Shown here: positions 3,381-27,557 of the stretch, in pieces
Position numbering within the stretch: the stretch's first letter is position 1
Layout: every line of letters starts with the position of its first letter
Virus record (IMG/VR): IMGVR_UViG_3300009068_000031
Coordinates: 1-64,000 of that record
Strand: one strand, 5' to 3'
Source of the DNA: a virus
Length of the DNA stretch: 64,000 bases
The notes under the pieces: model-generated
Told to the model about the DNA's origin: nothing
Database searches by the model: none
What the model saw: only the letters and a program-made list of their open reading frames with translations
Position numbers and translations under genes: made by a program

Positions 3381-3398
3381 TTGAGAAAAGGTAACCAT

Positions 3399-4247: not shown

Positions 4248-4549
4248 TGGCCACATACAGCATTATGAGTCCTTGGCACAACACAGAAACTGTCAATGAA
4301 CAATATTTAGGATTGTTAAGCATCAGACCTGTGCCCGAAACCAGCGACGATGTTCTATACACAGTGGAAGTTCAATACACTCACAGACCAGATCTATTGG
4401 CCTATGACTTGTATGGATCCACAAAACTTTGGTGGGTATTCTCACAAAGAAATCCTGAAGCATTGAAAGATCCCATCTATGATTTGGTGGCTGATTTAAA
4501 AATTTATCTACCTCAAGGTCCTAAATTAAGATCACTATTAGGATTATAA
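4247..4549 (+). CDS. 53: Baseplate wedge protein gp53-like
   Basis: A 100-residue protein containing RPDLLAYDLYGSTKLWWVF followed by DPIYDLVADLKIYLP. This pattern is characteristic of the short gp53-type/LysM-like baseplate wedge proteins of marine myoviruses. T4 gp53 is longer (196), so this is a compact version. In T4, gp53 joins wedges around the hub at the inner baseplate. It is coupled to the preceding gene by TAATG, and the next ATG begins 2 nt after its stop. The context between a gp48-type and a hub-type protein supports the call. Confidence 0.75.
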   Translation: MATYSIMSPWHNTETVNEQYLGLLSIRPVPETSDDVLYTVEVQYTHRPDLLAYDLYGSTKLWWVFSQRNPEALKDPIYDLVADLKIYLPQGPKLRSLLGL

Positions 4550-8324: not shown

Positions 8325-8771
8325 ATGAGCACCAAAGAGAAAAAATTATACAAAGACATCACAGTACGAGCCAACAAAACACCCTCGGCACCTGTGGGAC
8401 CTAGAGCCTACAGAGGTGTCAGCACAGTGAATCCTGATGCCAACAGTTTTAATCTGTATGACATAGCACTGATCAAACAGGATTTGTTGAATCATTTTCA
8501 CATCCGTCAGGGAGAAAAATTAGAAAATCCTGAATTTGGTACAATTATATGGGACGCACTGTTTGAACCACTGACAGAAGACATGAAGCAAGCCATCATA
8601 CAAAATGTCACAGAAATTGTCAATTATGACCCTAGAGTGCAGGTCAATTCAGTCACAGTGGACACTTATGAGAGTGGAATTCAAATAGAATGTGATCTTA
8701 CCTATCTTCCCTACAATATTTCTGAAAACATGCGTCTAAAGTTTGATGAAAACAACGGTTTAATCAACTAG
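8325..8771 (+). CDS. 25: Baseplate wedge subunit gp25-like
   Basis: A 148-residue protein, close to T4 gp25 (132). It shows the gp25/IraD-like fold signature: RQGEKLENPEFGTIIWDALF, then DMKQAIIQNVTEIVNYDPRV and a terminal beta-rich part. In contractile injection systems gp25 links the gp6 ring to the sheath initiator and is one of the most conserved wedge parts. The gene lies between gp5-like and gp6-like genes, as expected. No ribosome site precedes the ATG, and a late-promoter-like AATAAATA immediately upstream suggests leaderless expression. Confidence 0.9.
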   Translation: MSTKEKKLYKDITVRANKTPSAPVGPRAYRGVSTVNPDANSFNLYDIALIKQDLLNHFHIRQGEKLENPEFGTIIWDALFEPLTEDMKQAIIQNVTEIVNYDPRVQVNSVTVDTYESGIQIECDLTYLPYNISENMRLKFDENNGLIN

Positions 8772-8825: not shown

Positions 8826-11800
8826 ATGTCATCCACAGATAGATTGAACAAATTATTGCTGGCAGAGGACTGGAAAAAAGTCTATCAGAGCTTCAGAAAT
8901 GCCGATTTCAAAAGTTATGATTTTGACAATCTACGCAGATCCATGATCAATTATCTGCGTCAAAACTATCCTGAAGATTTCAATGATTATTTAGAGAGCA
9001 GTGAATATCTTGCTCTGATTGATTTGATTGCTTTCTTGGGACAAAACATTGCATTCAGAATTGACTTGAATGCCAGAGAAAATTTTATAGAATTAGCAGA
9101 ACGCAGAGAATCAGTGTTGCGTCTTGCTAGACTGTTGAGCTACAATGCCAAGCGTAATCAACCAGCCAACGGTTTATTAAAAATTGATGCCATCAGCACT
9201 TCAGAAGAGATCATAGACAGCAACAATATCAACATAGCCAATCAAACCATCATATGGAATGATCCCAGCAATGAAGATTGGTATGAACAATTTATTAAAG
9301 TGTTGAATGCAATTCTACCAGTGACTGGCAAAATAGGAAGACCCAACAAAATAGACACTGTGAATGGAATTCCCACAGAACTTTATCAATTCAATTCAAA
9401 CCTACAAGAAGTACCAGTGTTTTCATTCACAAAAACCATAGATGGCAGAAACACTGCCTTTGAAGTGGTCAGTGTGGATTTGAAAGATGGAGAATTAACA
9501 GAATTATCTCCTTTGCCCACAAACAAATTACAATTTGTTTACAAAGAAGATGGCAGAGGCAATGCCAGCAGCAACACAGGATTTTTCTTTCACTTCAGAC
9601 AAGGCACACTGCAACAAGGAGATTTTTCAGTGGACCTATCCACTCCCAATCAAGTGGTTGGATTGGATGCCACCAACATCAATCAATCAGATGTGTGGCT
9701 GTATCAACTGGACAGCAACAGCAACGAAACAGAATTGTGGACCAAAGTGAGTGCTACCGAAGGCAACAACGTGATCTACAACAGCACTGCAAAATCTATT
9801 AGAAATATCTACAGTGTGATCACTAGAACTGAAGACAGAGTCAATCTGCAATTTGCTGACGGCACTTTTGGAAATTTACCCAAAGGCAAATTTAGAACAT
9901 ATTACAGAACCAGTGACAATAGACAGTTTAAAATTGTTCCAGCAGATTTAATCAACATTGAAATCACAGTGCCTTATGTCAGTGCCACAGGCAAAGACGA
10001 AACACTCACAATCAGTTTGGCACTGCAATACACAGTGGACAACGCAACCAATTCTGAATCAAATAGTTCTATAAAAAACAACGCACCTGCCACTTACTAC
10101 ACGCAGAACAGAATGATCACAGGGGAAGATTACAATGTGGCTCCGTTGTCAGTGAATCAACAAATTATTAAAATTAAATCAGTGAATAGAATCAGCAGTG
10201 GAGTGTCCAGATACTTTGACCTGTTGGATGCTACCGGCAAATACAGCAGCACTAATTTGTACGGCAGTGATGGAATAATTTACAAAGAAAATATTAATAA
10301 TAATTTTACTTTCAGTTATGTGAGTAGAACTGACATTGAAGGAATCATTAACAATTCAATTGAACCTTTGTTGAGCAACAAAAAATTATTTAATTTTTAT
10401 TTGAACAATTTTGCTAAAATTATTACTACAGATGTGGCAACTGAATGGTATCAATCCACCAATGGCAGCAATCTCAGCACTGGATATCTTGCAGACAGTG
10501 ACAGTAACAAATTAGAAGTGGGCACTTTCACAGACAGTGTGTTAAAATATTTAGAAATTGGTGCACAATTAAAATTTACAGCACCCACTGGAAAATACTT
10601 CACAGCCAAAGGCGAATTGCTCACAGGATCCCCTTCACAATTGGGAGACAGCACAGTGCGATGGGCCACAGTGGTGAATGTGATCGACAATGGCACATTG
10701 ATTCAAAATGACAACAGCGGTCCCATAATTCTCAATGATGTAATACCCACTGATGCTGTGTTGGCTCAGATAGTGCCTAAATTTACAAAATTTTTGTCCG
10801 CAGATATCAAATTGGAAATGTTGGATCAAATATTTGCCAACAGTACATTTGGATTGAGATACGATATCGCAGCTAGAGATTGGGTGGTAATCGATGAAAA
10901 CAACCTCAATGTTTATGCTGATTTCAGCATGGGCAAAACAGGTGACATCAGCAATCAACAATTGGATGCCAGCTGGTTATTGCTGTTTACCACAGACACA
11001 GAACTGTACACAGTGACCTACAAAGGTGTGAGATATGTGTTTGAAAGCGACAAAGAGATAAGATTCTATTACGATAGCAGTGATAAAAATTACAACACCA
11101 ACACTGGCAAAATAATCAAAGACAAAATCACAGTGTTGAATATCAACAATGCTCCAGGAGTTTTGACTCCAATGTTGGACAATGTCAACTGGCAAGTGGT
11201 GGAAGAATACAAAGACGCACAAGGATATGTGGACAGTAAAAAAATAGAAATTACTTATTTTGATTCAGATGATGATGGACTGATGGACAATCCAGAATCT
11301 TTTGAAAATTTAGTATCTGCGGGCACTCTAGTGTATCAAAAAAAGATTACATCTAATGGAGTGGAAGATTTTAATTATGTGAATGCTGATAGTGAAAATA
11401 TTCAATCAATCAGCAGTGAAAACAACATTGGATCCTACAGTTCATATGACACAAATACTGTGTTTTACAACACCACCACTGGTGTTTTTAAATTATTGAA
11501 TGTGTCCACAGGAGTTTTGACCACAGTGAGTGATTATAGAGCATACAACGGTCGTGATAGTTTAAAATTTCAGTACGTACACAGCACAGACAGCTCTAAT
11601 AGAATAGATCCCAGCTCCAGCAATATCATTGATATATTTTTGTTGACAAGATCTTATGACACAGAATTCAGATCTTGGTTGTCTAACGATATTGAAAATA
11701 AACCCCTGCCACAGAGTTCTGATTCCATGTATCAAAATTTTGGCAAAGACATCAATCTAATCAAATCCATCAGTGATGAAGTGATCTATCATCCGGTGAA

Positions 11801-12242
11801 ATACAAAATTTTGTTTGGAGACAAAGCAGATGTTAAATTTCAATCAGTGTTCAAAGTGGTCAAAAACACCAATGAGGTGGTGAATGATGATGATGTGAAG
11901 GTAAGAGTGATTCAGGCTGTGAATGAATACTTTGATCTGGAGAATTGGGATTTCGGTGATACATTTTATTTTTCAGAACTCAGCACATACGTGATGACTC
12001 AACTGGCTCCAGATATAGTGACTTTTGTGATAGTTCCGGATCAAGCATCTCAATCCTTTGGCAGTTTGTTTGAAATTAAATCTGAAAGCGATGAAATTTT
12101 TATCAGTGGTGCCACAGTGGATGATGTTGAAATAATTGACGCCATAACTGCTTCAAAATTAAAATCCAGTGGGTCAATTGTCACATCTACTCCAAACATT
12201 AATGTGGGTATCAGCAGTGCTTCTTTCAACGGGAGTTACTAA
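8826..12242 (+). CDS. 6: Baseplate wedge subunit gp6-like
   Basis: A 1,138-residue protein, longer than T4 gp6 (660) but in the range of marine T4-like phages. The N-terminus (SLQ-free; about residues 25-110) has YDFDNLRRSMINYLRQNYPE and LIDLIAFLGQNIAFRIDLNA, typical of gp6. The C-terminal part (about 990-1110) has FKVVKNTNEVVNDDDVKVRV, FGDTFYFSELSTYVMTQLAP and VTFVIVPDQ, the baseplate J-like region. gp6 dimers form the continuous inner ring that ties the six wedges together. The stop overlaps the next gene (TAATG). The middle insertion relative to T4 has no function I can assign. Confidence 0.88.
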   Translation: MSSTDRLNKLLLAEDWKKVYQSFRNADFKSYDFDNLRRSMINYLRQNYPEDFNDYLESSEYLALIDLIAFLGQNIAFRIDLNARENFIELAERRESVLRLARLLSYNAKRNQPANGLLKIDAISTSEEIIDSNNINIANQTIIWNDPSNEDWYEQFIKVLNAILPVTGKIGRPNKIDTVNGIPTELYQFNSNLQEVPVFSFTKTIDGRNTAFEVVSVDLKDGELTELSPLPTNKLQFVYKEDGRGNASSNTGFFFHFRQGTLQQGDFSVDLSTPNQVVGLDATNINQSDVWLYQLDSNSNETELWTKVSATEGNNVIYNSTAKSIRNIYSVITRTEDRVNLQFADGTFGNLPKGKFRTYYRTSDNRQFKIVPADLINIEITVPYVSATGKDETLTISLALQYTVDNATNSESNSSIKNNAPATYYTQNRMITGEDYNVAPLSVNQQIIKIKSVNRISSGVSRYFDLLDATGKYSSTNLYGSDGIIYKENINNNFTFSYVSRTDIEGIINNSIEPLLSNKKLFNFYLNNFAKIITTDVATEWYQSTNGSNLSTGYLADSDSNKLEVGTFTDSVLKYLEIGAQLKFTAPTGKYFTAKGELLTGSPSQLGDSTVRWATVVNVIDNGTLIQNDNSGPIILNDVIPTDAVLAQIVPKFTKFLSADIKLEMLDQIFANSTFGLRYDIAARDWVVIDENNLNVYADFSMGKTGDISNQQLDASWLLLFTTDTELYTVTYKGVRYVFESDKEIRFYYDSSDKNYNTNTGKIIKDKITVLNINNAPGVLTPMLDNVNWQVVEEYKDAQGYVDSKKIEITYFDSDDDGLMDNPESFENLVSAGTLVYQKKITSNGVEDFNYVNADSENIQSISSENNIGSYSSYDTNTVFYNTTTGVFKLLNVSTGVLTTVSDYRAYNGRDSLKFQYVHSTDSSNRIDPSSSNIIDIFLLTRSYDTEFRSWLSNDIENKPLPQSSDSMYQNFGKDINLIKSISDEVIYHPVKYKILFGDKADVKFQSVFKVVKNTNEVVNDDDVKVRVIQAVNEYFDLENWDFGDTFYFSELSTYVMTQLAPDIVTFVIVPDQASQSFGSLFEIKSESDEIFISGATVDDVEIIDAITASKLKSSGSIVTSTPNINVGISSASFNGSY

Positions 12243-15200
12243 TGGCTTACGATAATAATCAAGAAGATTTTCCACTACCCAAAGGCAATCAAAACACATC
12301 AGATAGAAAAACTTCTAATCTACTTCCCAAATATTTTAGAACACCCACAAATACAAAATTTTTACACAGCACGTTGGATCAATTATTAAATCCAGGCACT
12401 GTGGAAAAAATCAGTGCGTTCTATGGCAGAAAAACCGCCAAAGCATTTGAGATTCAAGACAACTATATCAACGAAGTGTCAGATGACAGACAAAACTATC
12501 AATTTGAACCTGTGGTGGTTAGAAGAGACAATTTAAACAATGTGGTGTTTTACAAAGATTATGTGGATTACATCAATCAAATTAAAAGTTTATCAGGCAA
12601 TGTGGACAATCACAGCGTTTTAAACAGTCAAGAATACTACAGTTGGAATCCCAATATTGATTGGGACAAGTTTGTAAATTTTAGAGAATACTACTGGTTA
12701 ACTTCAGGTCCTGAAGTGATCACCATCACAGGCATTCAACAGCAGATTCAAAGCACTTACACTGTGCGATTGGCAGATAATTTGGACAATTATGCTTATG
12801 TGTTATCGCCAGATGGTTTGACACAAAATGCCACCATAAAATTGTTCAAAGGTATCACATATCGATTTGACATTGATACTCCTGGCATGCCATTCACTAT
12901 TAGAACTGCTAGAATTTTACAAGACAGTTATTTGTACAATGAAGGAGTGGATCAACAAAATGTGGAGCAAGGCACAACAATCTTCACAGTGGGAGTGAAT
13001 ACTCCAGACACTTTATATTATGTGTCAGCCAATGATATCAATGCTTATGGACTGATACAAATTGATGAAATAATAGAAAACAGTGAAATAAATGTAGAAA
13101 AAGAAATTATTGGTAAAAAAAGTTTCACATTAACCAACGGATTATCATTGTCCAATGGTATGAAAATAAATTTCAAAGGCAATGTAACTCCAGCCAAATA
13201 TGCTCAAAATGAATGGTATGTGGAAGGAGTGGGCGAATCAATTCAATTGATAAATGAACAAGATTTTGCAGTGCCCAACGATATTGCTGATGAAACTTTA
13301 GAATCATTTGATGATTTGGGATTTGACAAGAACACCTATGATATAGAGGACATCACAGCAGACTCAAAAGATTACATTGTGATCAAAAAAAATTCATTGG
13401 ATAAAAACCCATGGACCAGAGCCAACAAATGGGTGCATAAGTCTGTGTTGCAAGCAGTGGCAGATTACAAAAATATCACACTGGATGTGAATGAAAATTT
13501 AAGAGCAAAAAGACCCATAATAGAATTTGACAATGGTTTAAAACTTTATAAATTTGGCAGTGTGGCCAAACCATATGTGGATGTGGTGGACACATTCACC
13601 AAGGACGTGTTCAGTGACATAGAAGGAGCCACAGGTTACAATGTGGATGGAGTGGATCTAGTGGATGGCATGAGACTATTGGTCACTGCTGATCCAGATA
13701 TCCTAGTAAAAAATAGAATATTCACTGTGAAAATTATTAATTTTGGCGGAGATGGTGATCCCACCAACAAACAAATATCATTGATTGAACCAACAGATTC
13801 AGCACCGCTGGAAAATGAAGTAGTATTGGTGACCAATGGAACCGTCAATCAAGGAAAAATGTTTTATTATGATGGCGCATCTTGGAAAGAAGCTCAAGCA
13901 AAAACTGCAGTGAATCAAACTCCGCTGTTTGATGTGTTTGACGATGAAGGAGACAGTTTTTCCAATTCTGTCAAATATCTCAGCACAAACTTTTTAGGCA
14001 ACAAAGTTTTCAGTTATAGAGTGGGCACAGGAACCAACGACGTTGAACTGGGATTTCCTTTGGCATATAGAAATGTCAACAATGTGGGAGACATTGTGTT
14101 TGATTTCAATCTTCTTTCTGAAACTTTTGATTATCAATCTCAAGACACTCTTGTGACTCAATCCACAGATATTGGATTTTTAAAAAGATACAGTGACAGA
14201 ACCACTTTCAAATATGTGCATGGTTGGACCAAAGCCAAAAATTTCAGCAAACAAATGGTGATTAGGCAGTACATTGCTTCAGAACAAGTCAATGATTTTG
14301 CTGTGGATGTGTACAACAACAGTGGACTATTGAATGATTTGATTCTAAAAGTTTATGTGGATAATAAATTGTTGGATTCCAACGAATATCAAACAGTAAG
14401 TATCAATAACATTTTGTATGTGCAATTGAACAATGATTTGAACAGTGATCAGTCTATAATTTTAAAAACTCACAGTGATGCTGTAAAAAATAATCAAGGA
14501 TACTATGAAATACCAATCAATTTAGAAAGTAATCCTTTGAATGACAATCTTAATGATTTTACATTTGGTGAAGTGGTAAATCATGTGGACAGTATCATAG
14601 AACAATTGAATTCATTTGAAGGTGTAAATCCAGGTTCAAACAATTTGAGAGATTTGGGTAATTTAACTGCTTATGGAACTAAGTTTGTTCAACACAGTGC
14701 TCCAATCAATCTATCTTTGTATCACATCACAGAAAAACAAGTGAATGTGGTTAAATCTGTATCTTTTGCTCAGAAAGAATACGACAAATTCAAAAAAACA
14801 TTTTTACAAGTGGCAGAAAATTCTGGATTCAGTGGCACAGTGCGTGAGCATGTGGATGAAATAATGAAAATTATTAACAAAGACAAAAACAGCAACATGC
14901 CATTCTATTTCAGTGACATGGTTCCTTATGGTGCTGCTAAAAAATTAACATTCAAAGTGTATGACAACAGCAACATTTATTTTGCTCTCAGTCAACAGTT
15001 CAGCATGGCTCAATTGAATACCAAAGCAGTTCAGGTATATTTGAATGGTGAGCAGTTGTATCATAAAATTAATTATGAATTCAACAGTGACAATTTTTGT
15101 GTGATCAACACAGCATTAGCAGTGAACGATTTGGTGGAAATATATGAATATGAAAGCACCAACGGCAACTATGTGCCATCCACACCAACCAAATTGGGAT

Positions 15201-18200
15201 TGTATCCAAGATACAAACCACAAATATACACAGATCACACATTGATCAATCCAGTGGATGTTGTTCAAGGGCACGATGGCAGCATCATTGTGGCATATGG
15301 TGATTACAGAGATGAACTATTGTTGGAACTTGAAAAAAGAATTTATAACAATATAAAAATTGAATACAACAAAGACATAAGAAACATTTTTGACTTTGTT
15401 CCAGGAGAATTTAGAAACACAGGATATAAAACTTCCAACATTGATCAGTCTATGTCTGCTGATTTCATCAAATGGAACAGTATGGTGGGCACTTTGGATT
15501 ATACTAATAATTTTTTCTATGATGGATCAAACAGTTTTACGTTCAATCATTCACACATGCTGTCGTTTGCTGGCACTCCATTGTTGGGATTTTGGAGAGC
15601 CATATACAAACAAGCCTATGACACAGATAGACCACACAGTCATCCTTGGGAGATGTTGGGCTTCAGCGAACAGCCCACTTGGTGGAACACAGTGTATGGT
15701 CCAGCACCTTACACCAGTGACAACTTGATTCTTTGGGAAGATCTTCAGGCTGGTGTGATCAGAGAACCAGGCAAAAAAGTTGTTTACGATCCAAGATTTG
15801 TGAGAACGGATTTGTTGAATCATTTGCCCGTGAACGAGGACGGTGAACTGTTGAGTCCAATCAACAGCAACTACGCTAAAAATTTAATATTAACTCTATC
15901 ATCCAAACAGTTTAAATTTGGTGATCAAGCTCCAGTGGAAAACGCTTGGAGACGCAGTTCCAATTATCCATTTGCTCTGTTAAAGTCCATGCTGTTGAAC
16001 AGACCAGCTCACACCATGGGTGTAAATTTTGACGCTTCTAGAATTGTAAAAAATATCACGGATGAAATAATATATACCACCACTAAAAAAAGAATCACTC
16101 TGAAAGATTTAGTATTTCCCAACAGTAGAACAGATGAAAATTATGTGTTAACTTCTGGCTTGGTGAATTATATTTCAAATTACATCAAAACAGATGTATT
16201 GACCAAATATGCTGATTATCAAAACACTTTGACTGAATTAACTCAACAGTTGGGATTCAAAGTGAAAGGATTCACAGAAAAAGAAAAATTTAAATTGTTA
16301 TTGGACAGCAGATCACCACTGAATCAAAGCAATGTGTTTGTGCCTGAAGAAAATTATGATATTCATTTGAATTCCAGTTCACCTATTGATGTATTGGTGT
16401 ACAGTGCTGTAATTGTGGAAAAACTTCCAGAAGGTTTTTCAGTCAAGGGATATGATCTAACACTGCCAGAATTTAAATATTTTGCTCCCATTAAAAAACA
16501 AAATGATTCTGTGAAAAAAGTGGGTGGAGTGAGCAAATCTTATGTGAGTTGGATCTCCAACAAAGTCTACGGTGCTGGTCAGATTGTTCAGTATCAAAAT
16601 CAATTTTATCAAGCTGAAAGAGATCATCTGAGTGGCAGCAAATTTGATTCTTCTAAATTTGTCAAACTAAGTTCATTGCCCATTGAAGGTGGCATCACTG
16701 CTGTGTTCAGTAGAAACTTTGAAAAAGAAACAAGTGTATTAAATTATGGCACAGTGCTGCCCACTCAACAGCATGTGGTAGACTTTTTATTGGGCTACAG
16801 CAAATATTTAGAATCCAAAGGATTTGTGTTTGATAATTTTAATCAGAAAATCAATGCTGTGGAAAATTGGAATCTCAGTGCTCAAGAGTTCATGTTCTGG
16901 ACCACACAAAACTGGAAATCCGGAGCAGTGTTGTCATTGAGTCCAGCAGCCAATAAAATCCAATTAAAAACATCTTTTTCGGTGGCTGACAATGTGTTTG
17001 ATAATTTTTATGACTATGCAGTGCTCAAAGCAGATGGTATTAAAATTTCCAAAGAAAAATTAAGCGTGGTGCGACAAAACAACGACTTTACTTTGAGTGT
17101 GAAAAACACCAGTGACGGAATTTATTTTGTTAAAATACCTTTGATTCAAAAAGAACATGTGGTATTGATTGACAATGTTACAGTATTCAATGATGTGATC
17201 TATGATTTTGCAGCAGGGTATAGACAGGACAGAATCAAAGTGATAGGATATGTGGTGGGCAATTGGAATGGTTCCTTGAATGTGCCAGGATTCATGTATG
17301 ATGAAGTGAAAATAAGTGAATGGCAGCCATTCACAGATTACAGCATGAGTGATGTGGTCAAATACAAACAATTCTATTACAGTGCCAATCTAAACGTCAC
17401 AGGATCCAGCACATTTGATTTTGATCAGTGGACCAAACTGTCTGAAAAACCAGTCAGCACATTGAAACCCAACTTTGAATACAAAACCAATCAGTTTGGT
17501 GACTTTTATGATTTGGACACAGATAATTTTGATGTGGAGCAACAAAAACTTGCTCAACATTTGATAGGATATCAAAAGAGAGAATATCTACAAAATATCA
17601 TCAATGATGATGTGGCACAGTACAAATTTTATCAAGGGTTTTTACAGGACAAAGGCACCAAGAATGCTTTGGAAAAATTGTTTAATTCACTGGCCAGTGC
17701 CAACAAAGACAGCATTGAGTTCTATGAAGAATGGGCCATTAGAACAGGACAATATGGTGCGGCGACAGGCTTTGATGAAGTGGAATATGTGTTGGATGAA
17801 AAACAATTCAAATTGAATCCACAACCAATTTCATTGACCAACGATCTAAATCCCATAGATCCTGACTTTGTTTATAGAATCAAATCAGATGAAACTTATT
17901 TGAAATCAGAAAATTACAATCATAATCCTTTTCCTGAAAAGAATAATCTTGAAAAATACATCAAAACAGCAGGATTTGTGGATCCCAATGATGTGGATTT
18001 TATTTTAAAAAATTATGATGACATACTATCCATTGACACTGCCAAACTTAAATTTGATCAATATGTGTGGATTGGATTTTTCAAACAAAGTTGGCAGGTT
18101 TACAAACATATCAAAACAGATTATAAAGTTTTATCAGTGACTGAAGCCAACAATTTGGTCACTGTGGTAACAGATTTGTACAGCAATGTGTCTGTGGATG

Positions 18201-21200
18201 ACATAATATCTGTGAGCATACCGCAACAGAATTCCAAACAATTGTTCAAAGTAAAAACTGTGTCACTGGATCAAATAGTATGTCATAAAAACGGCAACAC
18301 AGTGTTGACCGTGAATGATGGATCTTCTCATGGATATTTGGGCACCTTTGTCAGTAACAAACTTTCAAATTTAGAATCTATCAACGCCAAGGCCCAAGAC
18401 TCGGGTGGATTCAAAAACAATGATCTGTTTTGGGTGGAAGATGACAACAATGCTGAATGGGTCACTTTAAAAAATAATAAAGTTTGGCAAAATCATCAGC
18501 AGATTGTCAACTTTAACACAGATTCTATGGCATCATATGGCACAGCCATGAGCGTGGATGGCAGCAACAATGTGATGGCAGTGTCTGATCTAAATCTAGG
18601 AATTTACATTTATAAAAGAGGATCAGATTCTGGACAGTTCACTCTGAGACAAGTGATCGATGTGCCACAAAACATTTGGACTGGCAATGCTGATTTTGGT
18701 GCAAGTTTAGACATCAGTGCTGACGGGAAATATATTGTGGTGGGAGCGCCCAAGGCTTCTCAAGTTAGAAGTTATTACAAAGGCAATTATTCAACAATCA
18801 CTGCATACGATGTGGGTGATATTGTAAAACACAAAGAACAATTGTGGAAAGTGGTAAACCCAGTGTTGGGTCAAGATCCTTCAGTGGATTTCACCACATT
18901 TGACGCTGCAAGTTTTTGGAGTGAAGTTGAATTTGATGCGGGCATAAATGCTTATCCCACAATCAAACAGATGATCACAGGCAACTATTCCGTAGCAGGA
19001 GTAAGCACTGATCATCTATTGATCCGAGCTGGCTCACAACAATACAGAGGCAGTGCAGTGGGCGACACTTTGGTGTTGTATTGGAATAATTTGACCACTG
19101 AATATCCCACTGGCAACACACCATTCAATGGCACAGCCACAGGCATTGACAAAACTTTTATTGATGGTGCTCATACCATTCAAGAGAAAGTGGATGAAAT
19201 TATCAACATAGATTTGACTCTTCTGACTCCAACAGTTGGAGACACACTCAGCACTGAAGATGCAGATGGAGAAGTTGTTTATGTATTCAGTCAAGGCACA
19301 CAGTCTATCATATATCTCAGCAATGTGAATGGAAATTTTGCTGATTCAGATCAGATCAAATTAGGCGTGTTTCCTGTGGGAGATTATACCAGAGTGATTG
19401 CAGAAGATTATGATCTCACATTGGCAGGATGGTGGTTGATCAACATACCTTCTCCTGGCACAGTTTCAGCTCAAGCTGACTCAAAAAAATCATTGGTGAT
19501 ACGAGACATTATCAAAGCGGGCGATCCTCGCACAGCTTTCTTGTATTTCAACAGTTTAGACACACAACAATCACAATCAGTATTGCCAACTATTATCACA
19601 CCTGCCAGTCAGTTAAGCATACTGACCTATGACAAGCAATTCACTATTTCAGGTTACAGTGCATTCACAGGCAGCATTGACGACAGCAGATATTTGATCA
19701 GAGCACCCAAAGCAATGAGTGATGTGCTGCCTACGGCTACCTATGATGAAGTGGGAGTTTGGTTCAACACCATACAGACAGGAGTTCCTCTATCAGTGAC
19801 AGAACCCACTGCTTTGGATCTACCTTTTGAGGATCTCAATGGTGTGAAAGAAATAATTGATGTATGGAATGGTTTTTTAAGAGTGTTGGCACAACCAGAT
19901 GGTTTGGGAACATTCTATGTGCCCACAGTGGGTGACACTGTGCAGGATGATGCCACAGGCAGTCAAGCAGAAGTTACCTATGTTAAAGTGGTGGGCTTTA
20001 ATGTATTACAGATTTATATCAAAAATAAAACTGGATCGTTCAGTGTGGGCACTGACTTTGGTCCGTCAGTCAATTTGACATTGATCGGCACGCCAAATAG
20101 AACTGTGGGAGTGATTCAACGCAGTGAATTGGAAGATGCAGTGGTGGGCTCATTGTTTGTGTTTGATCAAGGATCTGCTCTAGTTCCTACCAGCAACAGC
20201 GCATATCATTTTATAAATGGTTTGGAATATTATTTGTATCAAGATATCACACAGGATGGAGTGAGCAGAGCAGCCAGTGTGCCTTCCAGAATTAATAGAG
20301 ATTATGAACAAGTGTTCAATATTCCAGCTGGTCTTGGATATACTTCGGCATTGACCAATCAAGGATTATTCTTGATTTATGAAAGATTGACCAATGGCAA
20401 TTATGTATTGACCAGTTCTTACCTTGTGCCTAACATGAACAACGGTACAAACTTGGGTTTAAAAACTGTTTTAAGACAACACAATGCTGTGACCACGCTG
20501 TATGTGAGTTCAGCAGCCACTGCCACAGACACTGGTAAAATTTATTTTGTTAAAAAATCCAGCACACAAAACTGGAATTTGAGTGTGGATCCCAATTACA
20601 CAGGACTGTTTGATATCAGTTCAGTCTATCGTACCAATGATTTGATAGCTTATAATAATATCATATACAAGAGTTTGACCAATCAAGGACCATCCAGCTT
20701 TGTGTCTACTTTTTGGCAACCACAGACTGAAGGCATAGATTATCAAGGATATGTGCCTCATGATCCCAATGATGATTCTACTCCCACATTGGAAGGGGAT
20801 TCCACAATCAACATCAGTCAATTGCAAAATTTTGGATACACATTTGATGTGAACGATTCAGGTTCAGTGTTGGCAGTGTCCGTGATAGATTTTATAGACA
20901 GCAGTTCACCCACACAAAATAAGGTAGTGATATATAGATTGGTGAATGGCAGATATCAATATTCACAAACATTGATTTCACCAGACAGTGGAGAAGACAA
21001 CACAGATTTTGCCAATGCTGTGGCAGTCAGCAATGACGGCATGTTCATAGCAGTGGGCAGTCCGCAAGCAGATCAAACAGCCACTGATGGCGGAGTGGTG
21101 TATGTATTCAAACAAACCAATGGAGTATATGTCAATACTCAAACACTCACCAGTCCTCAACCTCAAACCACAGAAAAATTTGGAACTAATTTAGATTTTG

Positions 21201-24200
21201 ATGGTGACACATTGGCAATTTCCAGTCTCAATGGTGACATGGAGATTAATTTTTCTTTGGACACCAACAACACATATTTTGATGCTGGTGCCACCACATT
21301 CAATAATAAATTATTGGACACTGGGTCTATATATGTGTATGAAAACTTCAATAATGTATTTGTGTTTGCTGATGAATTCAGCGTGAATGATCAAGATCTT
21401 GTTAATTTTGGAAAAAATATAAAAATTAACAACAATCATGTGTATGCTTCTTTATCCAACTATCTAAATGATCACAGTTCTCCTTACACTGAAGGATTAA
21501 TTTTTGATTTTAGAAAACCAAATCTAACTCAAACATGGAATGCTCATAAAACTCCTGTGATGTCTGTTGATGTTGACAAGATAAAAGAAATTTTTCTATA
21601 CAATACAAAGAACAATAAGTTATTGCAAAAATTAGATTATATAGATCCTATTCAAGGCAAAATTGCTGGCATAGCTGAACAAGAGTTATATTACAAAACT
21701 TACTATGATCCTGCAGTGTACACCGTGGGTATCAGCGGATTGAGCATTGATGCTCAAAACAGTTGGCACAAAGAACAAGTGGGTAGATTGTGGTGGGATT
21801 TAAGCACTGTAAAATTTTATGATGCCAATCAAGGCAATATTATTTTTACAACCAATTATTGGAATAAAATATTTCCAGGTTCTTCCATAGATGTGTATGA
21901 ATGGGTGGAATCCAAATACTTGCCCACAGAATGGAATAATTTATCCGATACCAAACAAGGAATTGTTTTGGGAATCAGCGGCACAACCAAATATAACAAT
22001 TCAGTGTATGTGTCCAAACAAGTTTATGATTTTATTTCCAATAGTTTTAGCAATAGATATTACTATTGGGTTAAAAATAAAAAAACATTACCCAACATTG
22101 ACAGCAGAAAATTAAGTGCTTATGAAGTGTTTCAATTGATAGAAGATCCTAAAAAACAAGGCTATAAGTTTGTGTCGCTGTTGTCTAAAAATCAATTTGC
22201 TGTGAACAACATTGATAATTTTTTGGAAAACAAAGACACAGCAATAAACTTTAAAATTTGGACCATTAAAAATCAAGACATCAACATTCACAATGAATTT
22301 CAATTGATCAGTGAAGGAATTCCATACAGCAAACCCAAAAAAGAAATTGAAGCTGTTTGGTTCAACAGTTTGATTGGTTATGATGAACAATTCAGATCAG
22401 TGCCAGATGAAAATTTAAGTTTCAAATACAAATATGGCACATTGAGAAAACCTAGACAAGGATGGTTTGTCAATCGTATTGAAGCACTCAAACAAGTGAT
22501 TGAAAGAGCAAATGCTGTTTGTAAAACAAATTTAATCACAGACACACGTGACATCAGCAGACTGAATGAATTTGAGGAATCTCCCAGCACCATAACAAGA
22601 TTGTATGATTTAACCAAAGACACATTGGCTGACTTATCATTCGTGGGCACAGCTAACATTGAACAAGCAGTATTGATTCCTGTGATACAAAACAATAAAA
22701 TTGTTGATGTGTCTATAGTGAATCCTGGCAGAGGTTACAGAGTAGTTCCAACATATAAAATTATTGATTCACCAGGAACAGGATCAGGTGCTGAATTAGA
22801 GTTTGAAATCAACATATCAGGACAGATCACATCAGTCACAGTGAACAAACAAGGCAGCAACTACAGTGCCAACACAAGAATTGAAGTGAGAAAATTCAGT
22901 GTGTTGATACAATCAGATTCTGAAATTGGTAATAAATGGTCCATTCATCAATGGGACTCTGATTTGTTGGAATGGCAAAGAATTTTATCTCAAAAATACA
23001 ATGTTAATCAGCATTGGAGTTATGATGATTGGTACAGTGTGGGTTACAGTAAATTTACTGAAGTTAATCACACAGTGTCAGACAGCTATAAACTTTTATT
23101 AATCAATGATGAATTGGGAGATATTGTTAAAATTGAAAACGTAGGCACTGGTGGTTGGGTATTATTAGAAAAAATTGACAATCAAAATGATGTGGACTAC
23201 ACAATTAATTACAAAACCATAGGTAGACAGAATGGAACTGTGCAATTTTCTAATTCTTTATATAATTTTTCTCAATCCACTGTGGGATTCAACAGTACCA
23301 GTTATGATGTCACAGTTTATGACAATCAACCCATCACAGAAACAAGAATTATTTTAGAAACTTTAAGAGACAACATTTTTGTGGATGAATTGGAAGTGGA
23401 ATACAATAAATTATTCTTCTCCAGTTTGAGATATGTGTTTTCTGAACAATCTTTTGTGGATTGGGCATTCAAAACTAGTTTTGTCAAAGCTCAACACAAT
23501 GTGGGGGAACTTAATCAGCGTGTGGTTTATAAAAATGATAATTTATCCAATTATCAAGATTACATCAATGAAGTAAAACCTTACAAAACCAAAGTGAGAG
23601 AATACATCAGTGCTTATGAATCCATTGATAATTCCAGAGTGAATGTCACTGATTTTGATCTACCAGCCACTTATGATCCAGTATCTAAAAAAATTGTGGT
23701 GAGTTATGCCAAAGTTATCAATGATCAAATTGCAAATTCAAATATCACCAGCATTTATCCCAACAAACACTGGTTGGATAATGTGGGATTCAAAGTCACA
23801 ACAATTAAAATATCCAATGTGGGCAGTGGATATTTGGGAACTCCTACGATTACCATCACAGGTGGTGGAGGCACAGGAGCCACAGCCAAAGCATTCGTGA
23901 GCAATGGCAGATTAACACACATTCAGATAGTGGATTCAGGATCTGGTTATCTATCAGCACCCACAGTGAACATATCTGGCTCATTGTCCACCACAGGTGT
24001 GGCAGGTCAAGCAGTGGCCATATTGGGAGATTCATTGATCAAATCCACACACATCAGAGTTAAATTTGATAGAACCACTGGCACTTTATTGATCAGCAAT
24101 CTAACAAGAACAGAAACTTTTGTAGGCACAGGCAATCAATTGACATACTCTTTGAAATGGCCCATCAATCTCAAATCCAGCAAAGTCAAAGTGATAGTGA

Positions 24201-26929
24201 ATCAAAGACCTGCGTTGTTCAGCGAATATGTGTACAGTAACGAAGAAGACAACACAAAATCATACTTGAGAACTCAAGGCAGAGTAACTTTTGAACAACC
24301 ACCAGCATTGGGCAGTGCTATTCAAATTCAATATGAGATAGATGCCAATGTGTTGCAAACTCAAGACAGAGTGAATCATCTATATGAACCTATCACAGGC
24401 ATGTTGGGCAACGATTTGTCTCAACTGATAGAAGGCATAGACTACGGTGGAGTGGAAGTACGCAGCTTGTCATTTGGCGGTGGCACAGGATGGGATTCAG
24501 AACCATATTTTACCACCACTTGGGATACCTATGACACCACTTATGAAGATGAAGTGTTTAGATTGGACGGCAGTACCAACACATTTAATTTGAGTCAAGC
24601 GTTGTCTGCAGGAGCAATCTACAACATCTACAAGAACGGTGTGAGAATAGATGATCCCAACTACGGCACTGCTCAACCAGTAACCAATCCCAACGCATTG
24701 ATGAAAACCATTCAAGGTGATGGATCAACCACAGTGATTCAAATAAATGAACAATTGATACCCACAGTGGCCAATGATGTGATAGTGATACGCAAAAGCA
24801 CCAGTGATGGCAGCTTCTTGCCAGACCCAGATGCCTATGACACACTGCTGCAGGGTGGTGATCTGGCCTACAACACAGCAACAGGAATTTTATCACAAGA
24901 TATCATTGTGGATGGTGATGGATTTGTGACTCCTACCACCAGCAAAGGTCCAGAAGAATTGGTGCCAGGACAGGTATTGGACACTGTGGACATACAGGTG
25001 TATGATAGATCAGGAGAAACCGGCAGCAGAATCAACAGTTACAATTATTTAGGTGATAGCAGCACGTCTGTGTTTGCCATAGACTCATTGCCACAAAGTC
25101 AAGAAGGTGTGTTTGTGAAAGTGAACAATCAGATATTGGACAATTCAGCTTTCACCACAAACTTTGCCAACAAAACAGTAGTATTGAACAGTGTGCCAGC
25201 CAACAATGCTCAAATCAATATTATCACTATGAGCATGAATGGTGAAAAAATTGTGGACACAGATGTATTCACAGGAGATGGCAGCACATTTATATTTGTG
25301 ACCAGAGCAAAATTCAATATCAATCAATCTTCTTTTGTGAAGGTAAATGGACAAACAGCAACTTATGTGTTGGAAGAAACTGACAGTGGTTATCAATACA
25401 CCAACAAAACACTGATAAGATTTGCAGTGCCTCCAGCAGTGGGCAGTGTGATCACTTATGTGATTTACAGCAGCGTCAGCAAAACATTCAGTGAAGTAAC
25501 CTATGATGAATTCACTGGTGACGGTTCGACCATTGTGTATGATTTGAGTCAAACTCCTTTCAACCAAGAACCTTTGACACACAATGTGATAGTGAAAGTG
25601 GGCAACAATATTTTAAATGCTGGTTACAATGAAAGATTCAATGTCACAGCAGTGAGAGAATATGCTCTCAAAAGTTGGCAACAACCTTTTGGTTCAGTAC
25701 TGAGAACTGATGTAAGAGCATTTTTGAATGGTGTAGAATTAAACTCTGTGGAATATCGTTGGGAAAGTGCCAACAGCAGTGTGGTGTTGGAAGCTGGCAT
25801 AGGCACTGTGGGAGACATTTTAAAAGTGTATGTGATCAGTGACGGTGATTATGTGATAGGAGGATCTGGTGGATACACTTTGACTTTGGACACAGCACCC
25901 ACATTGGGACAAACTATTAAAGTTTGGCAGTTTACCAATCATGATGTGTTGCAGATAGAAAGAACAAATTATGATATCATTGCCAGAGACACCTTGGTGG
26001 TGGATTCCAACAATTACTTTGAATATCAAAATCTAACCAACGGTATTGTGAGATTGAGACAATCAGCTGTGGATGCACAGTATGTTTGGGTGGCCATCAA
26101 TGGCACAGTATTATCTCCCAGCGTGGATTACAAAGTGTTCAATGATCAGCAAACATTAAAGATAAAATCTACCATTCAGGCCAATGATGTGATAGATATT
26201 ATACATTTTACCGCACCTAAATATGTGTCCAAATTTGGTTTCAGACAGTTCAAGGACATGCTGAACAGAACACATTACAAACGTTTGGGCAATGACAACA
26301 AATATTATCTTACTCAAACATTGCATTGGTACAGTCAAGAAATATTATTAAGCGATACAGTGGGATTAACAGAACCAAATGTGAGTTTGGGTAGACCAGG
26401 AGTGTTGTTTATTGATGGAGAAAGAATAGAATACTTCTTGTTGTTTGCAGACAGAGTGGGTCAACTGCGCAGAGGCACACTGGGCACAGGTGTCAAAGAC
26501 AATTATGAATCGGGCACTGAAGTGTTTGATCAATCAGCATTCCAAACAGTGCCTTACAAAGATGAAACCATTACCGAAATATTCACCAGTGATGGATCCA
26601 CTGAAAACATCACTTTAAGTTGGATACCTCAGTCAGTGAATGAGTTTGAAGTGTTTGTGGCAGGCCGTAGATTGAGAAAAAACAGCATCCGTAGCTACAA
26701 TGCCACTTTGGGCATGGACAGTCCTGAAGCAGATGTGATCTTACCAGCTGAATTCAGTGTGTCAGGCACATCCACTATCTGCACTTTATTGGTGGCACCA
26801 CCAGTAAATACCAAGATTATTGTGGTGCGTAGGATAGGTAAATTATGGAACAACAGCACTCCTTTGAGTCAAACGGAGAATGACATAGCAAGATTCTTGC
26901 GTGCAAAAGAAGTGAGTTTGCCGCAATAA
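12242..26929 (+). CDS. Giant multidomain baseplate/tail structural protein (4,895 residues)
   Basis: One uninterrupted reading frame of 14.7 kb. The N-terminus (about residues 24-160: LLPKYFRTPTNTKFLHSTLD, QEYYSWNPNIDWDKFVNFRE) matches a family of very large structural proteins that follow gp6 in marine T4-like phages, at the gp7 position. Four W/Y...Y..GD.V......Y segments near residues 1437, 1694, 2181 and 2793 resemble short chitin-binding (CBM5/12-type) modules. FG-GAP/beta-propeller-like blades (FGASLDISADGKYIVVGAP; FANAVAVSNDGMFIAVGSP) occur around 2093-2175 and 2860-3075. Three GxGYxxxP repeats lie near 3493, 3858 and 3897. Several (T/S/L)DGST motifs lie at about 4104-4780. The modules suggest wedge attachment at the N-terminus and an extended glycan-binding exterior, which is inference. 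A late promoter overlaps its stop codon. Confidence 0.75.
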   Translation: MAYDNNQEDFPLPKGNQNTSDRKTSNLLPKYFRTPTNTKFLHSTLDQLLNPGTVEKISAFYGRKTAKAFEIQDNYINEVSDDRQNYQFEPVVVRRDNLNNVVFYKDYVDYINQIKSLSGNVDNHSVLNSQEYYSWNPNIDWDKFVNFREYYWLTSGPEVITITGIQQQIQSTYTVRLADNLDNYAYVLSPDGLTQNATIKLFKGITYRFDIDTPGMPFTIRTARILQDSYLYNEGVDQQNVEQGTTIFTVGVNTPDTLYYVSANDINAYGLIQIDEIIENSEINVEKEIIGKKSFTLTNGLSLSNGMKINFKGNVTPAKYAQNEWYVEGVGESIQLINEQDFAVPNDIADETLESFDDLGFDKNTYDIEDITADSKDYIVIKKNSLDKNPWTRANKWVHKSVLQAVADYKNITLDVNENLRAKRPIIEFDNGLKLYKFGSVAKPYVDVVDTFTKDVFSDIEGATGYNVDGVDLVDGMRLLVTADPDILVKNRIFTVKIINFGGDGDPTNKQISLIEPTDSAPLENEVVLVTNGTVNQGKMFYYDGASWKEAQAKTAVNQTPLFDVFDDEGDSFSNSVKYLSTNFLGNKVFSYRVGTGTNDVELGFPLAYRNVNNVGDIVFDFNLLSETFDYQSQDTLVTQSTDIGFLKRYSDRTTFKYVHGWTKAKNFSKQMVIRQYIASEQVNDFAVDVYNNSGLLNDLILKVYVDNKLLDSNEYQTVSINNILYVQLNNDLNSDQSIILKTHSDAVKNNQGYYEIPINLESNPLNDNLNDFTFGEVVNHVDSIIEQLNSFEGVNPGSNNLRDLGNLTAYGTKFVQHSAPINLSLYHITEKQVNVVKSVSFAQKEYDKFKKTFLQVAENSGFSGTVREHVDEIMKIINKDKNSNMPFYFSDMVPYGAAKKLTFKVYDNSNIYFALSQQFSMAQLNTKAVQVYLNGEQLYHKINYEFNSDNFCVINTALAVNDLVEIYEYESTNGNYVPSTPTKLGLYPRYKPQIYTDHTLINPVDVVQGHDGSIIVAYGDYRDELLLELEKRIYNNIKIEYNKDIRNIFDFVPGEFRNTGYKTSNIDQSMSADFIKWNSMVGTLDYTNNFFYDGSNSFTFNHSHMLSFAGTPLLGFWRAIYKQAYDTDRPHSHPWEMLGFSEQPTWWNTVYGPAPYTSDNLILWEDLQAGVIREPGKKVVYDPRFVRTDLLNHLPVNEDGELLSPINSNYAKNLILTLSSKQFKFGDQAPVENAWRRSSNYPFALLKSMLLNRPAHTMGVNFDASRIVKNITDEIIYTTTKKRITLKDLVFPNSRTDENYVLTSGLVNYISNYIKTDVLTKYADYQNTLTELTQQLGFKVKGFTEKEKFKLLLDSRSPLNQSNVFVPEENYDIHLNSSSPIDVLVYSAVIVEKLPEGFSVKGYDLTLPEFKYFAPIKKQNDSVKKVGGVSKSYVSWISNKVYGAGQIVQYQNQFYQAERDHLSGSKFDSSKFVKLSSLPIEGGITAVFSRNFEKETSVLNYGTVLPTQQHVVDFLLGYSKYLESKGFVFDNFNQKINAVENWNLSAQEFMFWTTQNWKSGAVLSLSPAANKIQLKTSFSVADNVFDNFYDYAVLKADGIKISKEKLSVVRQNNDFTLSVKNTSDGIYFVKIPLIQKEHVVLIDNVTVFNDVIYDFAAGYRQDRIKVIGYVVGNWNGSLNVPGFMYDEVKISEWQPFTDYSMSDVVKYKQFYYSANLNVTGSSTFDFDQWTKLSEKPVSTLKPNFEYKTNQFGDFYDLDTDNFDVEQQKLAQHLIGYQKREYLQNIINDDVAQYKFYQGFLQDKGTKNALEKLFNSLASANKDSIEFYEEWAIRTGQYGAATGFDEVEYVLDEKQFKLNPQPISLTNDLNPIDPDFVYRIKSDETYLKSENYNHNPFPEKNNLEKYIKTAGFVDPNDVDFILKNYDDILSIDTAKLKFDQYVWIGFFKQSWQVYKHIKTDYKVLSVTEANNLVTVVTDLYSNVSVDDIISVSIPQQNSKQLFKVKTVSLDQIVCHKNGNTVLTVNDGSSHGYLGTFVSNKLSNLESINAKAQDSGGFKNNDLFWVEDDNNAEWVTLKNNKVWQNHQQIVNFNTDSMASYGTAMSVDGSNNVMAVSDLNLGIYIYKRGSDSGQFTLRQVIDVPQNIWTGNADFGASLDISADGKYIVVGAPKASQVRSYYKGNYSTITAYDVGDIVKHKEQLWKVVNPVLGQDPSVDFTTFDAASFWSEVEFDAGINAYPTIKQMITGNYSVAGVSTDHLLIRAGSQQYRGSAVGDTLVLYWNNLTTEYPTGNTPFNGTATGIDKTFIDGAHTIQEKVDEIINIDLTLLTPTVGDTLSTEDADGEVVYVFSQGTQSIIYLSNVNGNFADSDQIKLGVFPVGDYTRVIAEDYDLTLAGWWLINIPSPGTVSAQADSKKSLVIRDIIKAGDPRTAFLYFNSLDTQQSQSVLPTIITPASQLSILTYDKQFTISGYSAFTGSIDDSRYLIRAPKAMSDVLPTATYDEVGVWFNTIQTGVPLSVTEPTALDLPFEDLNGVKEIIDVWNGFLRVLAQPDGLGTFYVPTVGDTVQDDATGSQAEVTYVKVVGFNVLQIYIKNKTGSFSVGTDFGPSVNLTLIGTPNRTVGVIQRSELEDAVVGSLFVFDQGSALVPTSNSAYHFINGLEYYLYQDITQDGVSRAASVPSRINRDYEQVFNIPAGLGYTSALTNQGLFLIYERLTNGNYVLTSSYLVPNMNNGTNLGLKTVLRQHNAVTTLYVSSAATATDTGKIYFVKKSSTQNWNLSVDPNYTGLFDISSVYRTNDLIAYNNIIYKSLTNQGPSSFVSTFWQPQTEGIDYQGYVPHDPNDDSTPTLEGDSTINISQLQNFGYTFDVNDSGSVLAVSVIDFIDSSSPTQNKVVIYRLVNGRYQYSQTLISPDSGEDNTDFANAVAVSNDGMFIAVGSPQADQTATDGGVVYVFKQTNGVYVNTQTLTSPQPQTTEKFGTNLDFDGDTLAISSLNGDMEINFSLDTNNTYFDAGATTFNNKLLDTGSIYVYENFNNVFVFADEFSVNDQDLVNFGKNIKINNNHVYASLSNYLNDHSSPYTEGLIFDFRKPNLTQTWNAHKTPVMSVDVDKIKEIFLYNTKNNKLLQKLDYIDPIQGKIAGIAEQELYYKTYYDPAVYTVGISGLSIDAQNSWHKEQVGRLWWDLSTVKFYDANQGNIIFTTNYWNKIFPGSSIDVYEWVESKYLPTEWNNLSDTKQGIVLGISGTTKYNNSVYVSKQVYDFISNSFSNRYYYWVKNKKTLPNIDSRKLSAYEVFQLIEDPKKQGYKFVSLLSKNQFAVNNIDNFLENKDTAINFKIWTIKNQDINIHNEFQLISEGIPYSKPKKEIEAVWFNSLIGYDEQFRSVPDENLSFKYKYGTLRKPRQGWFVNRIEALKQVIERANAVCKTNLITDTRDISRLNEFEESPSTITRLYDLTKDTLADLSFVGTANIEQAVLIPVIQNNKIVDVSIVNPGRGYRVVPTYKIIDSPGTGSGAELEFEINISGQITSVTVNKQGSNYSANTRIEVRKFSVLIQSDSEIGNKWSIHQWDSDLLEWQRILSQKYNVNQHWSYDDWYSVGYSKFTEVNHTVSDSYKLLLINDELGDIVKIENVGTGGWVLLEKIDNQNDVDYTINYKTIGRQNGTVQFSNSLYNFSQSTVGFNSTSYDVTVYDNQPITETRIILETLRDNIFVDELEVEYNKLFFSSLRYVFSEQSFVDWAFKTSFVKAQHNVGELNQRVVYKNDNLSNYQDYINEVKPYKTKVREYISAYESIDNSRVNVTDFDLPATYDPVSKKIVVSYAKVINDQIANSNITSIYPNKHWLDNVGFKVTTIKISNVGSGYLGTPTITITGGGGTGATAKAFVSNGRLTHIQIVDSGSGYLSAPTVNISGSLSTTGVAGQAVAILGDSLIKSTHIRVKFDRTTGTLLISNLTRTETFVGTGNQLTYSLKWPINLKSSKVKVIVNQRPALFSEYVYSNEEDNTKSYLRTQGRVTFEQPPALGSAIQIQYEIDANVLQTQDRVNHLYEPITGMLGNDLSQLIEGIDYGGVEVRSLSFGGGTGWDSEPYFTTTWDTYDTTYEDEVFRLDGSTNTFNLSQALSAGAIYNIYKNGVRIDDPNYGTAQPVTNPNALMKTIQGDGSTTVIQINEQLIPTVANDVIVIRKSTSDGSFLPDPDAYDTLLQGGDLAYNTATGILSQDIIVDGDGFVTPTTSKGPEELVPGQVLDTVDIQVYDRSGETGSRINSYNYLGDSSTSVFAIDSLPQSQEGVFVKVNNQILDNSAFTTNFANKTVVLNSVPANNAQINIITMSMNGEKIVDTDVFTGDGSTFIFVTRAKFNINQSSFVKVNGQTATYVLEETDSGYQYTNKTLIRFAVPPAVGSVITYVIYSSVSKTFSEVTYDEFTGDGSTIVYDLSQTPFNQEPLTHNVIVKVGNNILNAGYNERFNVTAVREYALKSWQQPFGSVLRTDVRAFLNGVELNSVEYRWESANSSVVLEAGIGTVGDILKVYVISDGDYVIGGSGGYTLTLDTAPTLGQTIKVWQFTNHDVLQIERTNYDIIARDTLVVDSNNYFEYQNLTNGIVRLRQSAVDAQYVWVAINGTVLSPSVDYKVFNDQQTLKIKSTIQANDVIDIIHFTAPKYVSKFGFRQFKDMLNRTHYKRLGNDNKYYLTQTLHWYSQEILLSDTVGLTEPNVSLGRPGVLFIDGERIEYFLLFADRVGQLRRGTLGTGVKDNYESGTEVFDQSAFQTVPYKDETITEIFTSDGSTENITLSWIPQSVNEFEVFVAGRRLRKNSIRSYNATLGMDSPEADVILPAEFSVSGTSTICTLLVAPPVNTKIIVVRRIGKLWNNSTPLSQTENDIARFLRAKEVSLPQ

Positions 26930-26951: not shown

Positions 26952-27557
26952 ATGATAGATAAATTCAAAGAATACAACGGCACATTGATACAAGGACATA
27001 TCAAAATACACGACCCAAAAACAGGTGAAATATTGGTGAACAAACGCAATGCTATTCACTATGAAAACATGAGCATAGCAATGGCAGAAAGTTTGGCCAA
27101 TGAAGGTCAGGGATTTATCAATTCCATGGTGTTTGGTACCGGAGGTACCTATATTGATCCCACAGGTATCGTGACCTATCTAACTCCCAACAGCACAGGA
27201 ACCAACGCTGCATTGTACAATCAAACATTCAGCAAAGTGGTGGATGATCGTTCAGTGAGCAACACTGATCCAGTGAGAAATAAAATTGAAACACGTCACG
27301 TGAATGGAACCAACTACACAGATATTTTAGTCACATGTTTATTGGACTATGGTGAGCCCAGCGGTCAAGATGCAGTGGATGCAGCCACAGGCACAGAAAG
27401 TTTATATGTGTTTGATGAATTAGGATTAAGAAGTTATTCCAGTTCAGGCACAGGAAGATTATTAACACATGTAATTTTTCATCCTGTACAAAAAAGTTTA
27501 AACAGATTAATACAAATAGATTACACAGTTAGAATACAAAGCCTTTCAGGAGTTTAA
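26952..27557 (+). CDS. Virion structural protein of the tail/fibre block, function unassigned
   Basis: A 201-residue protein. It opens with KFKEYNGTLIQGHIKIHDPK and contains a conserved-looking centre (FINSMVFGTGGTYIDPTG) and an acidic stretch ending in SLYVFDELGLRSY. I associate this pattern with a small structural protein found next to fibre genes in marine T4-like phages, but cannot name a T4 equivalent; it is shorter than gp8 (334). AAAAGGA precedes the ATG, and it has its own late promoter. It may connect the preceding giant protein to the fibres that follow; that is inferred from position only. Confidence 0.6.
   Translation: MIDKFKEYNGTLIQGHIKIHDPKTGEILVNKRNAIHYENMSIAMAESLANEGQGFINSMVFGTGGTYIDPTGIVTYLTPNSTGTNAALYNQTFSKVVDDRSVSNTDPVRNKIETRHVNGTNYTDILVTCLLDYGEPSGQDAVDAATGTESLYVFDELGLRSYSSSGTGRLLTHVIFHPVQKSLNRLIQIDYTVRIQSLSGV

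Follow-up and report, generated by a model that had tools for sequence, protein, structure and literature searches.

The nearest described counterparts of the giant protein analysed here belong to PHROG 10938, a jumbo-myophage family that includes the proteins of RaK2, 121Q, GAP32, PA5oct, and Atu_ph07. Its members (3,300-5,200 residues) are annotated as "hypothetical" in many jumbo-phage genomes, while the PHROGs category of the family is "head and packaging". In virions of the E. coli phage phAPEC6, 17 unique peptides were detected from gp245, which adjoins the wedge protein gp244 and has a listed mass of 381.88 kDa, a value taken here as the predicted mass that proves no single uncleaved chain (PMC7247149); gp245 was assigned as a homologue by size and position. 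The homologue from Pectobacterium phage CBB, CBB_236, was found in virions with 21 peptides (PMC5259590). Since peptides of both relatives were recovered from virions, the PHROG 10938 family is a virion component.

Two groups of cultured phages can be compared with the giant directly. The RaK2-like proteins (PBECO4 gp538, RaK2 gp070, GAP32 gp230, CBB_236, and phAPEC6 gp245) are approximately 3,330-3,340 aa long and are homologous to the giant over its scaffold, with the same position after gp6, but they possess neither the propeller and its insert nor the CBM5/12-like modules described below. The proteins of PA5oct/Paride, Atu_ph07, Phosso, and SCTP-2 (3,807-4,555 aa) are also homologous, but they lack module 2 and differ in the middle region. 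A more distant point of reference is T4, in which gp6 is followed by the single-copy gp7 (1,032 aa) in the baseplate operon, the two genes overlapping. T4 gp7 is not known to contain a propeller or CBM-like modules. It is the fibre-attaching wedge protein in T4, A511, and pyocins (PMC10811340), and a published comparison concluded that VrlC seems to take its place ("substituted") in cyano- and pelagimyophages (PMC7029224).

The giant gene lies in a T4-type baseplate operon

The analysed window is a 64,000-nucleotide stretch of a viral record of 77.6 kb, which is presumably a fragment. The giant gene occupies positions 12242-26929 on the plus strand, which also carries the baseplate genes and the first fibre gene listed below. 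The frame was predicted originally to run uninterrupted through 4,895 residues, and the 4,895 codons indeed contain no internal stop. The genome search assigned the giant a 6,060-aa open frame (G000:C1:12284-22549), while the stop-to-stop frame in the window is 4,908 aa.

Upstream of the giant, genes were identified for a gp53-like baseplate wedge protein (4247-4549; PHROG 7145/232), a gp5-like baseplate hub/tail lysozyme (6810-8309; PHROG 13211), the gp25 wedge protein (8325-8771; PHROG 261/43), and the gp6 wedge protein (8826-12242; PHROG 10646 with 1028 bits, and PHROG 219). The last one overlaps the start codon of the giant, whose ATG shares the sequence TAATG with the gp6 stop, and the arrangement resembles the overlapping gp6 and gp7 genes of T4. 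The giant is followed by the gene of a 201-aa protein (26952-27557; PHROG 11259), and a gene of about 200 aa near the giant is also present in several jumbo phages. The first fibre gene, encoding a tail collar domain, is located at 27565-29583 (PF07484, 65 bits; PHROG 9116). Thus, the order in the window is gp53-X-gp5-gp25-gp6-giant-fibres. The fetched jumbo genomes showed, whole or in part, the series late sigma factor, gp53, gp5-type lysozyme, gp25, gp6, giant, and then fibre or tail genes. PBECO4, Paride, XbC2, and GAP32 have the baseplate genes of the window in identical order as far as the giant, while gp25-gp6-giant or gp6-giant was found in Phosso, Atu_ph07, RaK2, and Vibrio phage 2.275. 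The exception was Salicola phage SCTP-2 (L085), where the gp6 homologue is approximately 92 kb away from the giant; consequently, the adjacency of gp6 and the giant is not universal. In this phage the giant is preceded by a 3,096-aa gene to which no function is assigned.

The giant matched the PHROG 10938 profile ("virion structural protein") with 1059.7 bits, and tblastn detected homologues in 57 phage records, almost all of which are jumbo myophages. The nine jumbo genomes searched, one of them labelled partial, contained exactly one PHROG 10938 giant each. In IMG/VR, more than 500 stretches with relatives were found, and an IMG/VR search using the Phosso segment returned no relatives. The closed IMG/VR relatives are 4,572-5,011 aa long apart from a single short frame (L035), which stops 6 bases before the contig end. 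Because of this narrow range, the length of the giant is not an accident of assembly. One relative is carried by a 335-kb contig, which fits a jumbo phage. This contig (L210) and another of 153 kb (L209), also with a relative of the giant, were binned in a Red Sea Neomarinimicrobiota MAG; they are apparently jumbo phage contigs within a bacterial bin, and such a bin does not prove the host.

The modular domains and the extreme length might suggest that the giant is a polyprotein cut into several ordinary baseplate proteins. We regard this as highly improbable: almost all closed relatives fetched carry a single frame (the short L035 being truncated at a contig end), each of the nine jumbo genomes searched has one homologue, and no evidence for cleavage sites was found.

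Relation of the giant to gp7

The gene position and the lack of any other detectable gp7 in the jumbo relatives searched provide good support for the giant occupying the place of gp7 in the baseplate wedge. The T4 gp7 profile (phrog_964) matched T4 and the gp7 giant of cyanophage S-SSM7, the latter via 31 residues, but it had no match in the nine jumbo genomes (one labelled partial). PF09684 was also tried as a gp7 detector and was uninformative, as it misses T4 too.

The sequence relationship to T4 gp7 is less clear. HMM and profile-profile alignments between T4 gp7 and the giant revealed no significant similarity, which counts against the assignment. T4 gp7 and the cyanophage gp7 giants have a 31-residue motif in common (48% identity, probability 92%), and the same link was obtained independently via PHROG 2885 and with the T4 gp7 profile (E 1.4e-8). 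In the giant, a conserved helical segment at residues 1739-1960 (17456-18121) bears a KG[TS] motif, present in 18 of the 18 aligned giants, and forms a candidate gp7-type core. This motif and the KG motif common to T4 and cyanophage gp7 fall in register, but at E values of only 0.03-0.3; in a sliding-window control of 80 segments, the KG spot was matched by two segments in T4 gp7 and by four in the profile of cyanophage gp7. The alignment is therefore suggestive only and could be due to chance. Wedge proteins of the gp7/BW3 kind form a (gp6)2-gp7 heterotrimer through a helical bundle; the segment was helical in the structural model, mostly with pLDDT below 50, which likewise weakens its use as a core.

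The cyanophage and pelagimyophage gp7/VrlC giants (e.g., S-SSM7, 3,007 aa) also present a giant in the gp7 slot. They share the GxGY repeat with the giant of the window (profile match E 7e-7 over 78 columns), but are otherwise unalignable to it and have a different N-terminus; the repeat match is weak evidence for kinship of the whole proteins. In S-SSM7 (L091:13861-24270), the gp7 annotation is carried by two very large genes with one gene between them. T4 gp7 was absent from the Foldseek and VIA matches of the model of residues 968-1990, a result that does not exclude gp7 kinship, and PDB sequence searches with profiles of the N-terminal scaffold, the second scaffold block, and the C-terminus gave nothing credible.

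Considering these data, the giant is probably an expanded gp7-position (BW3-type) wedge subunit of a T4-related jumbo-myophage baseplate, in which the modules dock and the propeller projects. It would be expanded nearly fivefold over T4 gp7, and a wedge subunit is a better reading than a separate appendage. The points that weigh against it, beyond the sequence data above, are the distant gp6 homologue of SCTP-2 and the nearly equal fit of the modules to a non-viral enzyme (see below). A gp7-slot wedge subunit would also give the PHROG 10938 family a functional frame.

Conserved scaffold and repeat regions

The N-terminal scaffold comprises residues 1-1433 (12242-16540) and is conserved into cultured jumbo phages: its identity is 25-31% with the proteins of Phosso, Paride, and PBECO4, and it reaches about 50% or above with those of environmental relatives; no Pfam family matched it. 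For a second conserved scaffold block at residues 3095-3480 (21524-22681), the identity was at least 46% in the comparison with environmental relatives and 24-33% in that with cultured jumbo phages. In the alignment of 18 giants, residues 1-1960 and 3095-3950 were conserved as scaffold, while the block between about 1970 and 3090 was variable and is missing in the RaK2-like phages. The scaffold may build the six wedges together with gp6, gp25, and gp53, and it would supply the attachment site for fibres.

The GxGYxxxP and DGST motifs, noticed already in the original prediction, proved to be internal repeats. The former lie at residues 3486-3549 and 3851-3911 within the region 22697-23974 (internal repeat E 1e-5), and the latter belong to C-terminal beta repeats at residues 3957-4471 (24110-25654; internal repeats with E down to 1e-8). 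Both termini had been expected to be conserved. This was true for the N-terminal part, which is recognizable in cultured jumbo phages, while the C-terminus is well conserved in the closer environmental relatives only.

Four CBM5/12-like modules

Four aromatic segments of the giant had been proposed to resemble CBM5/12 modules, and profile searches, supplemented by structure comparison for the first two, confirmed this. Module 1 (residues 1434-1478; 16541-16675) lies in a beta domain, module 2 comprises residues 1693-1735 (17318-17446), and modules 3 (residues 2179-2221; 18776-18904) and 4 (residues 2786-2829; 20597-20728) stand at the start and the end of the propeller insert, respectively. 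Pfam CBM_5_12 matched the whole giant with 35 bits (cut-off 26.2); taken separately, module 1 passed the cut-off with 27.2 bits, modules 3 (20.3) and 4 (16.7) remained below it, and module 2 was missed. Despite these scores, a local profile built from orthologues brought modules 2-4 into alignment with module 1 and gave 46-56 bits for modules 1-3 (55.8 for module 2 and 46.3 for module 3) and 38.5 bits for module 4. At least four modules are present in all of the 56 IMG/VR relatives with a length of 3,100 aa or more, and in these proteins the spacing of modules 1 and 2 always stays within 255-263 residues; the set of four is consequently not a product of chance. Module 1 is missing in the RaK2-like giants, which have none of the four, and is present in those of Paride, Atu_ph07, and Phosso. 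Module 2 is a clean 50-residue insertion (1689-1738), and all eight aligned proteins from cultured jumbo phages lack it.

The model of residues 968-1990 had a pLDDT of 67 overall and mostly 75-86 in modules 1 and 2. Module 1 superimposed on the deacetylase and Milano tailspike modules with Z 7.2-7.4 and rmsd 1.2-1.5 over 45 residues, and module 2 on the phage 7-7-1 tail fibre with Z 6.8 and rmsd 1.3 over 46 residues. The best structural matches of this model, that is, the Milano tailspike (7.4), the chitin deacetylases (7.2), and the 7-7-1 fibre (6.8), are to be read as ties, and Z values below 8 are meaningful here only because the sequence profiles agree. According to the model, modules 1 and 2 are of the small twisted beta CBM5/12 fold. 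Foldseek and VIA searches of the PDB with the same model found essentially CBM modules alone, and the BFVD matches were uncharacterised phage homologues.

Searching the PDB with the four-module profile placed the 7-7-1 tail fibre first (5.7e-13), followed by the Vibrio chitin deacetylase DA1 (1.4e-10), the Milano tailspike (2.9e-10), and chitinase A1 (1.3e-6). The deacetylase and the Milano anchor thus match the modules about equally well. The modules of the Milano gp124 tailspike, the 7-7-1 fibre, and CBA120 TSP1 D2 have the same small fold as those of the giant, and the first two also show the terminal G..F....W pattern; in such trimeric spikes or fibres the modules are located close to the N-terminus, while those of the giant are inside a wedge protein. 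The gp6 and gp7 equivalents of Milano have the tailspike modules wedged between them, and a PPGPFDPANW segment of the anchor contacts the gp7 equivalent (PMC10811340). The chitin-binding fold of CBA120 TSP1 D2 is in the virion-binding part, and according to its authors such head-binding domains had so far not been reported to bind polysaccharides (PMC3966878). The position equivalent to W687 of chitinase A1 is occupied by F in 73% of approximately 270 modules, and W is outside the four commonest residues there. W687 is the exposed tryptophan with which chitinase A1 binds chitin.

The 7-7-1 and Milano matches, the CBA120 fold, and the F at the W687 position therefore favour docking, by analogy, as a likelier job of the modules than glycan binding, which is nevertheless possible. 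On the wedge subunit model, the CBM5/12-like modules would be mainly small docking domains that grip fibres or neighbouring chains, similarly to the Milano tailspike anchor. The original prediction went the other way, supposing that the giant reaches out from the baseplate and that its four modules bind a surface or particle polysaccharide ahead of the fibres. The modules do match the chitin-binding domains of chitinase A1 and the Vibrio chitin deacetylases both in sequence and in fold, their number is retained in all long environmental relatives, and CBMs in other phage adhesion devices are thought to bind host glycans (PMC8540738). However, the top solved match is a phage tail-fibre module, the W687 position mostly carries F, RaK2-like phages infect without any modules, and modules 1 and 2 are embedded in the conserved scaffold of a protein in the gp7 slot. 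Such a baseplate adhesin is consequently unlikely, and binding of glycan before the fibres is unsupported, while a structural baseplate protein with modules of CBM5/12 fold and a propeller is very probably correct. A CBM5/12 match in a tail protein may be a sign of a docking module, not of a sugar binder.

The gp6 homologue of Vibrio phage 2.275 (L086:7623-11486) bears three CBM5/12-like modules, compared with no more than one weak match in the giant of this phage. From this distribution, the modules appear to move between wedge proteins.

A predicted seven-bladed propeller interrupted by an insert

The FG-GAP-like blades of the original prediction were recovered by FG-GAP_2 with 36-38 bits (cut-off 23), and internal repeats paired residues 2092-2174 with 2857-2945. 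The AlphaFold2 model of residues 2060-3105, built from 36 sequences (pLDDT 84.8, pTM 0.66), joined both blade stretches into one closed ring of seven blades. The predicted beta-propeller thus consists of a first part at 18434-18769 and the remaining blades at residues 2855-3093 (20804-21520; FG-GAP_2, 38.1 bits). Its structural matches, including a designed seven-bladed protein, reached Z 26-27 over 280-306 residues, and Foldseek aligned it to integrin headpieces at probability 1.0. The propeller is split by an insert of approximately 680 residues with a CBM5/12-like module at either end. The inner part of this insert (residues 2222-2785; 18905-20596) is mostly beta according to the secondary structure, varies in length, and matched no Pfam family. 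In a set of 58 proteins, modules 3 and 4 lay between 143 and 868 residues apart; two relatives, L074 and L075, have lost most of the insert (residues 2220-2685 in L074) and kept both modules.

Compared with the same distant relatives, the propeller and insert showed about 30% identity versus about 50% for the scaffold, and no other part of the giant varies as much as the propeller block. The dN/dS of the propeller and insert was 0.15-0.27 versus 0.09-0.15 for the N-terminal scaffold, about 1.6 to 1.8 times the scaffold value; in several pairs, the synonymous sites approached saturation. These values point to relaxed constraint or mild diversification rather than to positive selection.

As part of the wedge subunit, the propeller with its inserted domain would project from the wedge rim and may be the likeliest part to touch the host or a fibre. 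Given that variability is highest in the propeller with modules 3 and 4, host contact by this part alone is possible. A division of labour, in which modules 1 and 2 dock neighbours while the propeller, the insert, and modules 3 and 4 form an exposed receptor-contact device evolving with the host, is compatible with the wedge subunit reading and extends it with respect to the propeller. The lower identity and higher dN/dS of this region, the variable module 3-4 spacing, the lack of the propeller in RaK2-like phages, and the suggested receptor roles of the baseplate propellers of phi11 and PhiKZ gp131 (PMC4901313) are in line with it, but the dN/dS values demonstrate relaxed or milder constraint only. 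We consider it a real possibility, though one falling somewhat short of probable.

A further idea arises from the integrin alpha headpiece, which is likewise a seven-bladed FG-GAP propeller broken by an inserted domain. The likeness is one of architecture only: the insert of the giant is mostly beta and flanked by CBM-like modules, and no sequence kinship between it and the integrin inserted domain was found. It is rather improbable that the propeller acts as an integrin-like sensor, in which the insert, gripped by a CBM5/12-like module at either end, binds a host surface ligand and relays a conformational signal via the propeller and the wedge to trigger sheath contraction; if it did, a receptor sensor would reside inside the baseplate wedge itself.

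The giant is a widespread baseplate protein, ordinary in kind and unusual in build; the surprise lies in how large this protein of the gp7 slot is, in the break in its propeller, and in the four modules forming a fixed set. The homologues grade naturally from proteins of about 3,330 aa that have neither propeller nor modules up to proteins of about 5,000 aa that have the two, so that the roles of the add-ons can be compared across existing phages.

It is worth mentioning that at least seven radical SAM proteins, two of them with SPASM domains, are encoded in a cluster downstream of the fibre genes (38481-48163), and radical SAM genes likewise follow the giant and fibre genes in Sinorhizobium phage Phosso. 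These proteins might modify fibre or other virion peptides.
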